DNA of 64,000 nucleotides from Methanospirillum lacunae (lineage in GTDB: Archaea; Halobacteriota; Methanomicrobia; Methanomicrobiales; Methanospirillaceae): positions 496,001 to 560,000 of the forward strand of contig NZ_QGMY01000002.1 in NCBI RefSeq assembly GCF_003173355.1. The letters run 5' to 3'. A program made the position numbers and the translations under genes. Under the pieces are notes generated by a model. That model was given only the letters and a program-made list of their open reading frames with translations, ran no database searches and was not told the origin of the DNA. Shown here piece by piece: positions 2,747 to 61,694 of the stretch. Every line of letters begins with the position of its first letter. Positions within the stretch are counted from its first letter, which is position 1.

Positions 2747-3991
2747 ATGTCAGTGGATATTTCGCTTATTATCGTCGGAGGAGGGCCTGCAGGACTTTTT
2801 TGCGCATTACAGGCAGCGAGTGAAAATATAGATGTTTTAGTGCTTGAAAAAAAGCGTTCATGCGGAAATAAACTCCTGATAAGTGGATCTGGTCAATGCA
2901 ATATCACTCATGATGGTGAAATTCAGCAATTTCTATTGCACTATGGTGATAATGGATCCTTTCTCAAACCCTCTCTTATGAATTTTGGAAATCAGGATCT
3001 TATCAGTTTTTTCAATGAAAGAGGGGTTCCATTGGAGATTGAACCTGGTGGAAAGGTGTTCCCAATCTCCCACAAAGCATCTGATATCCTTGATTTTCTT
3101 ATTCATGATTGTCAGAAATACGGAGTTAGGATTAAAAATTCCAGCCCTGTAACTGATGTCACGTACACTGATGGCAGGTTTCAGGTAACAACTGATGAAG
3201 ATATTGTTACCTCAAATTACCTGGTGATTGCCACAGGGGGAGAAACATATCCAGCGACGGGATCTACCGGTGATGGTTTTACATTTGCATCTCGTCTGGG
3301 CCATACAGTGACTGAAACTGGATCTGCACTTACTGGAATACAGGTAAAAGATTACCGTTTCTCCGATCTTTCAGGGATTTCTTTTGCTGACCTGAATATA
3401 ACTCTTTTTAGAGATGGGAAAAAGATAAAAACCCACATTGGTGATATCCTTTTTACTCATTCAGGTCTTTCAGGACCTGGTATTCTTGATTTCTCCAGAT
3501 ATATCCGTCCGGGGGATACTCTCAAAGTCTCTTTTACACCAGGGATTGATACCCGGGAGATGAACGAGAAATTAATTAAACGGATTTCAGAATCTGGTAG
3601 TAAGCAGCTCCGGACAGTTCTAAATGGATTCAGACTCCCTGAAAGAGTTGTCAGGAGGCTACTCGAACTTGCGAATGTTGATCCAGATCTCACCGGTCCT
3701 CACCTAACAAAAAAGGATCGCACAAATCTTGTTGATTTGATTACCGCTTGTCCTTTTGAGGTTAGCAAACTCGGTGGTCATGAAGAGGCTATGGCTACCC
3801 GGGGAGGAGTAAATCTGTCAGAAGTTAATCCAAAAACCATGGAATCACGTATCATTTCAGGCCTCTTCTTTGTTGGAGAGGTTCTTGACATAGATGGTGA
3901 TACTGGGGGATATAATCTTCAGGCTGCATTTTCAACAGCAAAATTAGCTGGACAGCGAATACATGTTCTTTCTGAAGACGAAAAACATTAA
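2747..3991 (+). CDS. HI0933/YhiN-family FAD-dependent oxidoreductase
   Basis: 414 residues, cytosolic. The N-terminus carries a dinucleotide-binding motif (IIVGGGPAGLFCALQAA, residues 7-23) followed by the family signature around 'GNKLLISGSGQCNITH'. The end has the FAD-ribityl segment 'GLFFVGEVLDIDGDTGGYNLQAAFSTAKLAG'. This matches the HI0933-like flavoproteins, some of which (BaiN) reduce double bonds. The substrate in methanogens is unknown. The length is normal. It ends 33 bases before a convergent gene on the other strand. Confidence 0.85.
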   Translation: MSVDISLIIVGGGPAGLFCALQAASENIDVLVLEKKRSCGNKLLISGSGQCNITHDGEIQQFLLHYGDNGSFLKPSLMNFGNQDLISFFNERGVPLEIEPGGKVFPISHKASDILDFLIHDCQKYGVRIKNSSPVTDVTYTDGRFQVTTDEDIVTSNYLVIATGGETYPATGSTGDGFTFASRLGHTVTETGSALTGIQVKDYRFSDLSGISFADLNITLFRDGKKIKTHIGDILFTHSGLSGPGILDFSRYIRPGDTLKVSFTPGIDTREMNEKLIKRISESGSKQLRTVLNGFRLPERVVRRLLELANVDPDLTGPHLTKKDRTNLVDLITACPFEVSKLGGHEEAMATRGGVNLSEVNPKTMESRIISGLFFVGEVLDIDGDTGGYNLQAAFSTAKLAGQRIHVLSEDEKH

Positions 3992-47999: not shown

Positions 48000-48006
48000 A
48001 AAAAAA
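48000..48006 (-). terminator. T-tract after the small peptide gene
   Basis: Seven consecutive T on the minus strand, 7 bases after the peptide stop codon. Oligo-T is the main archaeal termination signal, so the peptide message is probably made mostly as a short transcript. Confidence 0.45.
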
Positions 48007-48013
48007 GACTGCT

Positions 48014-48151
48014 TTAAGTAGTTACACCTGACCCAGTGCAACAGGCAGGATTATTGAACATTTCTCCATATGTACATGTTTCGGCCCCACCGATGAATGC
48101 GTCACTGTTCAGGTCAATAGCCATTGGTTTCTCATAATCCATCTTTTCCAT
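48014..48151 (-). CDS. Small Cys-containing peptide, RiPP-precursor-like
   Basis: 45 residues. The N-terminal half is a charged leader (MDYEKPMAIDLNSDAF); the C-terminal half is a Gly/Thr/Cys core (GGAETCTYGE ... NPACCTGSGVTT) with three Cys. The 'YEKPxxIDL' opening resembles leaders of ribosomally made, modified peptides. Starts at 48151 (MEK) or 48142 (MDY); the frame opens further up at 48250, but that would fall before the expected leader. TATA-like AAATTTATAATAG (48250-48262, minus) could drive it. No radical-SAM or other classical maturase is adjacent. Confidence 0.55.
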   Translation of the reverse strand: MEKMDYEKPMAIDLNSDAFIGGAETCTYGEMFNNPACCTGSGVTT

Positions 48152-48442
48152 TTTTACCACAAGACATTCTTTTGTTCTACTTGTATATGAGTTTGTTTGA
48201 GTTACAACAAGGATAGTGATAGTATGATGGAAAATTCGGACTATCTGCACACTATTATAAATTTAGCCAGAAATTCCCATCAGGGTTTGAAGGAACTTTT
48301 CGATCGATAAAAAACGTGGAAGTTTCTACTTACGCAATTGATCCGGATATAATATCTTCATCTTTGAATTTTTAATATACTGTATTTGTAGATTCAGATC
48401 TCAATATTCTCTTAGCATATGTTAAATTCAATATTCTGGTTT

Positions 48443-49225
48443 CTAGTTAGCCATTATCTTTTTCATGATATTTTCAAATCTTGTATTACTGATCGGATGA
48501 TGACTGATGACTTTTCCGTTGTAAATAATGCAGAAGGTCCCAAATGCGCAGGGTGTTTGCCTTATTTTTTGTGGACTTTCTAGATCTATCAGGACGGGAG
48601 TCTGGTGATATTTTTCTTTCGCAGTTTTCATAATTGCCTCAACGTTTTTTTCAGAATATGGACACTGGGCAGATCTTATTATAGTCAGGCCAGAGGGATA
48701 ATCTGCAGCCCGTGATGAAATATCATTAGAAAATCGGGGCATTTTATTGTCAATATGAAACGACAATGTAAGGAGATCAAAGTCAGGCTGTACAGAATCG
48801 GTGATGGTAAAACCAAGATTGATGAAAATATCTTTCTTTGCCATGAATGCTCCAGAGCGGGTGACTACTGCGACACCTTTAAAGTCCCCCTCTTTCGCCT
48901 CTCTGATACATTCCCTGATTAATTTTTTTCCATATCCTCTTCCTTTGTATTCTTTATTAAAACCAGTAAATAAGCATTGAATAAAAAGATATCCGTCTGC
49001 CTCAACCGGTCGGTGAGCGATTTCTCCTGGCATATATTCAATCATACCCTGATATCCTGCTGATTCTGAAAAAAGGATTTTCATCCTGAGTCCCTTGGGA
49101 TAGTATTCTTTAAACCAGTTGATCTTCTTCCTGAGTTCTAGGTGTTTTTCCATATTTTTGTACCCACAGACTCCATATTGGGCAATGTTTTCAGGAATTA
49201 TATTAATAATTTCAAGATCGTGCAT
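48443..49225 (-). CDS. GNAT acetyltransferase with C-terminal YoaP-like thioredoxin domain
   Basis: 260 residues. The GNAT domain (about 1-160) has the acetyl-CoA loop 'YKGRGYGKKLIREC' (about 93-106). The C-terminal part (about 180-260) is thioredoxin-like with Cys188 in 'SAQCPYSEKN' and 'QTPCAFGTFCIIYNGKVISHHP', matching YoaP-type fusions. The substrate is unknown. It lies upstream of the small peptide and exporter genes on the same strand; TATA-like AATTATATATTCC is at about 49257-49269. Confidence 0.8.
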   Translation of the reverse strand: MHDLEIINIIPENIAQYGVCGYKNMEKHLELRKKINWFKEYYPKGLRMKILFSESAGYQGMIEYMPGEIAHRPVEADGYLFIQCLFTGFNKEYKGRGYGKKLIRECIREAKEGDFKGVAVVTRSGAFMAKKDIFINLGFTITDSVQPDFDLLTLSFHIDNKMPRFSNDISSRAADYPSGLTIIRSAQCPYSEKNVEAIMKTAKEKYHQTPVLIDLESPQKIRQTPCAFGTFCIIYNGKVISHHPISNTRFENIMKKIMAN

Positions 49226-59585: not shown

Positions 59586-61064
59586 TTATTCTGACTGTTG
59601 ACTGTATTTCTTCCAGACCTGTTCCCGGTATACAGGGCCACTGTTATAGGTACAGAAAGGAATCAGTTTACCATCAGGCGTAGCGTAGTGAATGCAGCAC
59701 CTGTTCACCCGGTCGATATCATAGTTGTAATTATCCATGAAGTGCATCGTACCGATGAAGAGTGCATTCCAGTGAAATGACCTGAGGGAATCAAAGTTAT
59801 GGGTGATAAGGGTCTTCCCAAGGATCTTCCAGACATCAAGCCCCTTATTCTTCTCATCACCCTTGAACTGGTTATAAAACTCCCTGAGGCCGTTGATGGC
59901 AACCATCTTCTTTGAAAGTGTGCCACTCTTCTCAAGTTTCCGTGATAACTGTTCAATTGAGTTGAAGAATGCATCCACATCAACTATCCTGTTGATTGGA
60001 ACAATTCCCTCTTCTCTGACAAAGACATAGGTTGCCGCACCACAATGCTGATGCGCAGTAAATTTGATCTGTGATTTTCCGGTATATGCTTCAACAAAGT
60101 CTGAAACCGGAACAACACAGGGCACTGGATAAAAGTCATTTTTTAAAATGGCTCCATCTGTCTGTGACTCTATTCTGTCTAAAAGTTCAGGAATTGTAAT
60201 TCGTTCACGGTTTAAATCTTCCTGGTTTGCTGCACCTGTAAAAGAGACCGGCTGGAAGTTGACACCCCTGATGACTGAAATGTTCTCGGTGGCAAACCTG
60301 ATGATTCCACCAATTTCATGGTCGTTCTTTGTCTTGATGATCGTTGGCACCAGGACAATACCAAGGCCGACCTTCTTGCAGTTTTCTACCGCTTTCAGAT
60401 CATGGTTTATTTTGAAATTGGTTTCTTTTGTAACTCCATCAAAATGCAGGTATACAGTCTGAAGACCTGCATCTTTGAGTTGTCGAGCATAATCGGGATC
60501 TGAAGCTAGTTTTATTCCGTTTGTTGCGAGTTGAACCTGAAGAAATCCCAGTTCTTTAGCTAACCGGAGAATATCCGGAAGATCATCCCGCATAGTGGGT
60601 TCCCCACCAGCAAACTGGACTGCAGGGGCTGCATTTGGTTTTTCAGAACGAAGAACCTGAAGCATACCTCTGATCTGTTCAAACGTTGGCTCATACACAT
60701 ACCCGCATGCTCTTGCATTTGCAAAACAAAACTCACAGTTCAGGTTACACCGGTTTGTCAGGTCAATATTTGCAAGTAGTGTTGTAGAGTGGTGGTGATT
60801 ACAGATTCCGCAGTCATTTGGACAGGAACTGATGTCAGTAGTTATTTGTGGGTTATCAAGACCATTTCCTGTAATATTATATTCATCATATCTTTTGTAC
60901 AGTTCAGCATCATCCCAGTACAGAAACGAAAACGGACCATGTTCCGGGCATGTGCGATCGATATATATCCGCCCCTCCCGTTCGTAGATTTCAGCATCGA
61001 GAACTTTTTTGCATACAGGGCAGAGACTTTTTGTCTTTTTCAGAAGGATAATATCACCCACCAC
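59586..61064 (-). CDS. tes: Radical SAM tetraether lipid synthase (Tes) family protein
   Basis: 492 residues. N-terminal Cys sites ('LCPVCKK', 'TCPEHGPF', 'CPNDCGICNHH') precede the radical-SAM C-x3-C-x2-C motif in 'DLTNRCNLNCEFCFANA', then 'VQFAGGEPTMRDDL'. This matches the MJ0619 group, which joins two archaeol chains into a tetraether. Related members were earlier proposed to methylate a pterin, so the assignment is by family. The start GTG pair at 61059-61064 lies in open frame further upstream; it diverges from carS. Confidence 0.8.
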   Translation of the reverse strand: MVGDIILLKKTKSLCPVCKKVLDAEIYEREGRIYIDRTCPEHGPFSFLYWDDAELYKRYDEYNITGNGLDNPQITTDISSCPNDCGICNHHHSTTLLANIDLTNRCNLNCEFCFANARACGYVYEPTFEQIRGMLQVLRSEKPNAAPAVQFAGGEPTMRDDLPDILRLAKELGFLQVQLATNGIKLASDPDYARQLKDAGLQTVYLHFDGVTKETNFKINHDLKAVENCKKVGLGIVLVPTIIKTKNDHEIGGIIRFATENISVIRGVNFQPVSFTGAANQEDLNRERITIPELLDRIESQTDGAILKNDFYPVPCVVPVSDFVEAYTGKSQIKFTAHQHCGAATYVFVREEGIVPINRIVDVDAFFNSIEQLSRKLEKSGTLSKKMVAINGLREFYNQFKGDEKNKGLDVWKILGKTLITHNFDSLRSFHWNALFIGTMHFMDNYNYDIDRVNRCCIHYATPDGKLIPFCTYNSGPVYREQVWKKYSQQSE

Positions 61065-61190: not shown

Positions 61191-61694
61191 GTGATGCTCC
61201 CTGCATATGTTCCAAATTCAGCAGCTGCAGCTGTCGGCGGAGGGATTCCCATAGACGGTGGTCATACCTGGTATGATGGAAAAAGGATTCTTGGCGATGG
61301 AAAAACCATTCGAGGATTTTTTGGCGGGGTAGCCTGTGGTTGCATCATAGGCATTCTACAGATAATGGCGCAGGGACAGCCGGTCTTCTCAATGCTTCCT
61401 AAGTTAAACATCTTTTCTGTCTTGCTTCTTGCAACCGGCGCTCTTGTTGGTGACATGGTAAAAAGTTTCTTCAAGCGCCGGGCAGGAATTGAACGGGGAG
61501 GAAAATGGCCTCTTGTTGACCAGTATGATTTCGTGGCTGGTGCATTCCTGTTTCTCTTTGTTGGAAATCCGGCATTTGCATTCTCAGTCCTGACTGTCCC
61601 GGTAATCATCGCTATTCTGATTATCACGCCAGTATTACACCGGGTTGTTAATATTATTGGATACAAAATGGGAGTGAAAGACGTTCCATGGTAG
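61191..61694 (+). CDS. carS: CDP-archaeol synthase (CarS); true start probably upstream
   Basis: 167 residues from GTG 61191. 'PAYVPNSAAAAVGGGIPIDGG', 'ILGDGKTIRGFFGG' and 'SFFKRRAGIERGGKWPLVDQYDFVAG' are CarS signatures with the CDP-binding loop, and three or four membrane helices are visible. The frame continues upstream to 61143 and encodes the expected first helix (IIFYLFLTIASAFWVM) but has no ATG, GTG or TTG, though AGGAGTGA lies at 61135-61142. It makes CDP-archaeol from CTP. Its end overlaps pyrE by 7 bases. Confidence 0.88.
   Translation: MMLPAYVPNSAAAAVGGGIPIDGGHTWYDGKRILGDGKTIRGFFGGVACGCIIGILQIMAQGQPVFSMLPKLNIFSVLLLATGALVGDMVKSFFKRRAGIERGGKWPLVDQYDFVAGAFLFLFVGNPAFAFSVLTVPVIIAILIITPVLHRVVNIIGYKMGVKDVPW

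Follow-up and report, generated by a model that had tools for sequence, protein, structure and literature searches.

The window, the whole 64-kb stretch analysed here (C2:496001-560000), belongs to a genome (G000) of 3.74 Mb in 25 contigs. It carries a short gene on its minus strand whose translation, read on the reverse strand from 48151 to 48014, is MEKMDYEKPMAIDLNSDAFIGGAETCTYGEMFNNPACCTGSGVTT followed by the stop codon. The original prediction had described this 45-residue frame without stating its strand, and both the frame and its surroundings were found as it had said: a TATA-like element about 100 bases upstream, a T7 tract 7 bases after the stop, and a Cys content of one isolated residue (C26) and a Cys-Cys pair (positions 37-38). 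A longer frame of 78 codons beginning at a GTG is also readable upstream; the ATG at 48151 aligns exactly with the starts of the cassette precursors described below. No hairpin terminator was found 3' of the gene. The features are summarized in Table 1.

Table 1. Features of the precursor gene and its flanks (positions in the window)
Feature	Position	Strand	Basis
Precursor gene, 45 codons and TAA	48014..48151	-	translation; alignment and profile match to cassette precursors
YEKP, the YxxP leader motif, residues 6-9; expected binding site of the PqqD-type ScmD	48125..48136	-	conservation; PMC12710340
IDL, residues 12-14, common to the precursors of the same genome	48110..48118	-	alignment
First CxxG unit, C26-T-Y-G29	48065..48076	-	C and G invariant in 35 precursors
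Second CxxG unit, C37-C-T-G40	48032..48043	-	C and G invariant in 35 precursors
TATA-like TTTATAATA, putative element 102-110 bases 5' of the ATG	48253..48261	-	sequence
T7 tract starting 7 bases past the stop, possible archaeal terminator	48000..48006	-	sequence

With the 45-residue peptide as query, five further places were found in the same genome, every one of them at 76.6-85.6 kb of contig C3. These are parts of longer frames, of 129-144 residues where intact, with a leader of the form M-x-K-K-x-Y-x-x-P-x-x-IDLS followed by many Cys residues, mostly in CxxG units. Seven such longer Cys-repeat precursor genes surround a SynChlorMet cassette on C3, with ScmD, ScmE, ScmF and ScmC encoded between them; two of the seven are defective or aberrant (L007:17029-17412 lacks an ATG and is interrupted, and L008:374-790 lacks the YxxP). 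ScmE (492 bits) and ScmF (449 bits) pass their NCBIfam cut-offs of 400, and ScmC (150 bits) its cut-off of 125. ScmD scores 80 bits, under the NCBIfam cut-off of 100, and is clearly a PqqD-type protein by Pfam (PqqD, 50.4 against 23.4). Near the cassette lie genes for a signal-peptidase-like S26/S24 protein, an ABC exporter and an NTP_transf_5 protein, all of which recur in many of the ScmF loci treated below.

A profile (A2) was built from the C3 genes and genes of a congener, with the window peptide left out. Searched against the same genome it returned the seven C3 genes and the window peptide (E=9.9e-8), the next match (E=1.4) falling inside one of the C3 genes. In this profile search the window peptide is the only family member found outside the C3 cluster; its gene lies on C2 and the cassette on C3, two separate contigs. 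That the gene is a chance open frame, as its shortness and its presence in one genome might suggest, is highly improbable in view of this match to an independent profile, of a score of 33.2 bits against at most 19.2 bits among 20,000 shuffles of the peptide itself, and of a chance expectation of about 0.01 per window for the pattern YxxP...CxxG...CxxG. The core alone scores no better than chance frames and the leader alone gives a marginal score (E=0.06 across the frames of the window), so the match depends on leader and core jointly. Identity to the nearest relatives in the genome is 42%. Compared with the C3 gene L007:18025-18435, 19 of 45 positions are identical and all six key residues are kept (P=0.003, hypergeometric), a rough argument because three of the C3 genes themselves miss one or two key residues, which shows that the constraint has exceptions.

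When 35 precursors from archaea and numerous bacterial phyla are aligned, P9, C26, G29, C37 and G40 (window-peptide numbering) are invariant and Y6 is kept in at least 90% of the rows. The window peptide retains every invariant position; it consists of one YxxP and two CxxG units, with a core of 20 residues, and at a total of 45 residues it is probably disordered for the most part. Lasso RREs are reported to recognize YxxP, and an RRE group which includes PqqD, FusE, McjB and StsC to recognize W/Y/LxxP/L/I (PMC12710340). The 'Gly-Gly step' of the original prediction does not hold up as a conserved GG cleavage site: the relatives in the same genome align G-I-G or G-V-G at this place. A double-glycine bacteriocin precursor was rejected on the same grounds, and also because the cassette ABC exporter has no C39 peptidase domain by Pfam.

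The SynChlorMet cassette is present in methanogens and many bacterial phyla among the GTDB species genomes. Eighty loci of ScmF relatives were taken from these genomes: 58 (L064-L121) are similar to ScmF, with identities mostly of 31-74%, and 22 (L122-L143), below 30% identity except for the partial locus L123, served as control. With 18 Methanospirillum rows plus seven cassette precursors of methanogens as its seed, an iterative profile identified short precursor-like frames, with a YxxP leader and then CxxG, at 40 of the 58 ScmF loci and at none of the 22 control radical-SAM loci. A simple motif, [YW]xxP followed by two CxxG at a spacing of 5-10 residues, which was chosen after the alignment had been seen, occurred in 55 frames at 38 of the 58 loci, with one spurious frame in the control loci; the total lengths, 798 and 296 kb, cannot account for 55 versus 1. 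The same motif found a single frame in the 64-kb window, the peptide itself, and 100 windows shuffled at first order gave one frame. Iteration of the profile used these very loci, so its counts are biased towards detection; the control loci and the shuffles limit the biases of profile and motif. The assignment of the peptide as a RiPP precursor with leader and core, made in the original prediction from the sequence, is thus well supported by its homology to precursors encoded in cassettes, both in its own genome and in other phyla.

The original prediction was to fall if no relative had a homologue with a conserved leader and Cys positions. Such homologues exist in the same genome and in other phyla, and the prediction was not refuted, although no orthologue at the same site was found in the 11 other genomes of the genus. 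In one of these genomes (G010) the same cassette is accompanied by about ten precursors, and a second cassette is also present. A relic, meaning a former cassette precursor copy which moved away, lost its later repeats and fell out of use, would be in keeping with the restriction of the peptide to a single genome (11 congeners without an orthologue), with the threefold greater length of its relatives in that genome, and with the broken precursor copies that the cassettes hold (L007:17029-17412 and L026:6267-6663). It is nevertheless rather unlikely: the frame is intact from its aligned start to the stop, all invariant positions are retained at an identity that has fallen so low, and downstream no remnants of further repeats were found in any frame, for which reason truncation by a recent stop or frameshift was rejected as well. 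Furthermore, two-CxxG cores of the same size adjoin ScmF in the Bacteroidota MAG loci L088 (five in a row) and L092 (two), so the window peptide appears complete for its kind and is not evidently cut short.

Assignment to a named family is indirect. The curated precursor model TIGR04252 (ScmA) matches eight of the 35 related precursors, with a best E of 4.2e-6, which ties the set to the named family. The model, whose cut-off is 35 bits, matches neither the window peptide nor the precursors of the same genome, and it gives 16.9 bits for a cassette precursor of the methanogen G026; it overlooks whole substrate sets. Scans of the window peptide against Pfam and NCBIfam gave no match even at E=10. 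The peptide shares with ScmA, which goes with ScmC/D/E/F (TIGR04249/04248/04250/04251), the YxxP leader, the CxxG units and the presence of the cassette enzymes in the same genome, but its gene lies apart from the cassette and the curated model misses it. Since it has the ScmA layout, fails TIGR04252 and is encoded outside the cassette, it is filed as ScmA-like and not as ScmA. It has two CxxG units, as against seven to nine in three long Methanospirillum relatives. No paper on the SynChlorMet cassette was found in the literature that was searched under the cassette name or the family number.

The nearest genes are unlikely partners. A GNAT acetyltransferase with a YoaP-like C-terminal domain (48443-49225, minus strand) is conserved in four congeners that are without the peptide, and neither a like peptide nor a Bcr/CflA transporter was found near it within the flanks examined in these relatives; the neighbouring transporter and the acetyltransferase are therefore probably unrelated to the peptide. 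The radical-SAM gene of the window (59586-61064, minus strand) was rejected as a maturase, since no more than a weak, local match to ScmE was obtained. Its product looks like a tetraether-lipid synthase, and the gene beside it (61191-61694, plus strand) is presumably a CarS-like CDP-archaeol synthase. The statement that no maturase is adjacent is confirmed: no Scm-type maturase is encoded in the window.

Taken with the cassette on C3, these data make it likely that 48014-48151 is a minimal precursor of the Scm kind, situated away from its cassette and modified in trans by ScmE and ScmF of C3. Modification in trans had been one of two options offered earlier; it is now the leading account, and ScmD, ScmE and ScmF can be named as the likely enzymes. 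ScmD, a PqqD-type protein, would bind the YxxP of the leader and offer the 20-residue core to the radical-SAM/SPASM enzymes ScmE and ScmF, which would modify it probably at or near the Cys residues; action in trans is proposed because there is no such enzyme gene near the peptide. Leader removal may fall to the S26/S24-type protease of the cassette, and release of the product to its ABC exporter. The other option, a Cys peptide that has dropped out of the radical-SAM pathway and works unmodified or with simple disulfides, could appeal to the lack of an adjacent maturase and to a TATA-like element of the gene's own. It is judged very unlikely, as the peptide retains a YxxP leader of the type read by PqqD-type proteins, the cassette is present in the genome, and a peptide without a signal peptide would stay in the reducing cytoplasm, which is unfavourable for disulfides.

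The proposed modification by the cassette enzymes has partial parallels elsewhere. Prochlorosins are made from many precursors, some encoded far from the single maturase, the lanthipeptide synthetase ProcM. The likeness is one of logic only, in that a single set of enzymes acts in trans on scattered precursors, and the enzymes differ, ProcM there and radical-SAM enzymes here. Sactipeptides and ranthipeptides (AlbA, SCIFF, PapB) have Cys-containing cores and radical-SAM/SPASM enzymes in common with the present system; ScmE and ScmF score on the corresponding maturase models, far below the cut-offs, and none is passed. A thioether at Cys would be the usual guess for radical-SAM/SPASM enzymes acting on Cys-rich peptides, but neither enzyme passes these sactipeptide or ranthipeptide cut-offs. 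The lasso, PQQ and StsC sactipeptide pathways, whose PqqD-type RREs recognize YxxP-like leaders (PMC12710340), resemble the Scm system in the leader motif and in a PqqD-type protein, but the precursor core is another one and no lasso cyclase is seen here.

A wider reading, in which Scm enzymes act in trans on scattered substrates and the lone core yields a distinct product under its own promoter, regulated apart from the multi-repeat products, is offered only tentatively. No obvious common elements were found by eye in the upstream regions of the cassette precursors and the orphan gene. A core of 20 residues with two CxxG units comes close to the smallest substrate that could be hoped for, the cassette precursors of this genome having cores of some 100 residues, and its small size makes the cassette chemistry directly testable.

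Further observations were made on the cassettes. At L007:16056-18435 and L026:5999-9809 a tandem unit of precursor, ScmD and approximately the first 35 codons of ScmE is repeated three to four times, the precursor stop and the ScmD start being close or overlapping; this looks like an amplification of the substrate along with its carrier protein. The cassettes also contain precursor copies that are broken, without an ATG or with the frame interrupted, and a second ScmC that is broken too (L007:17029-17412, L026:6267-6663, L007:9017-9493). A C-terminal Ser is common to all intact Methanospirillum cassette precursors (L007, L008, L026); in other taxa most precursors do not keep it, and the window peptide has Thr-Thr at its end. 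By a weak match to TIGR04352, ScmC is similar to HPr-kinase-like proteins, and enzymes of that kind phosphorylate the last Ser residue of certain lasso peptides. Another kind of precursor is encoded beside ScmE/ScmF-like genes in G003 (L023:3012-3287, minus strand, and 3439-3771, plus strand), with a YEKPT leader, VSGGEG and repeated Cys-x-x-GG-Ala units. A different Cys-rich family, present in several copies with a YEPPxLVxFG-type leader and about 12 Cys, was observed at L037:533-2771 and L044:1264-1665 (G031).
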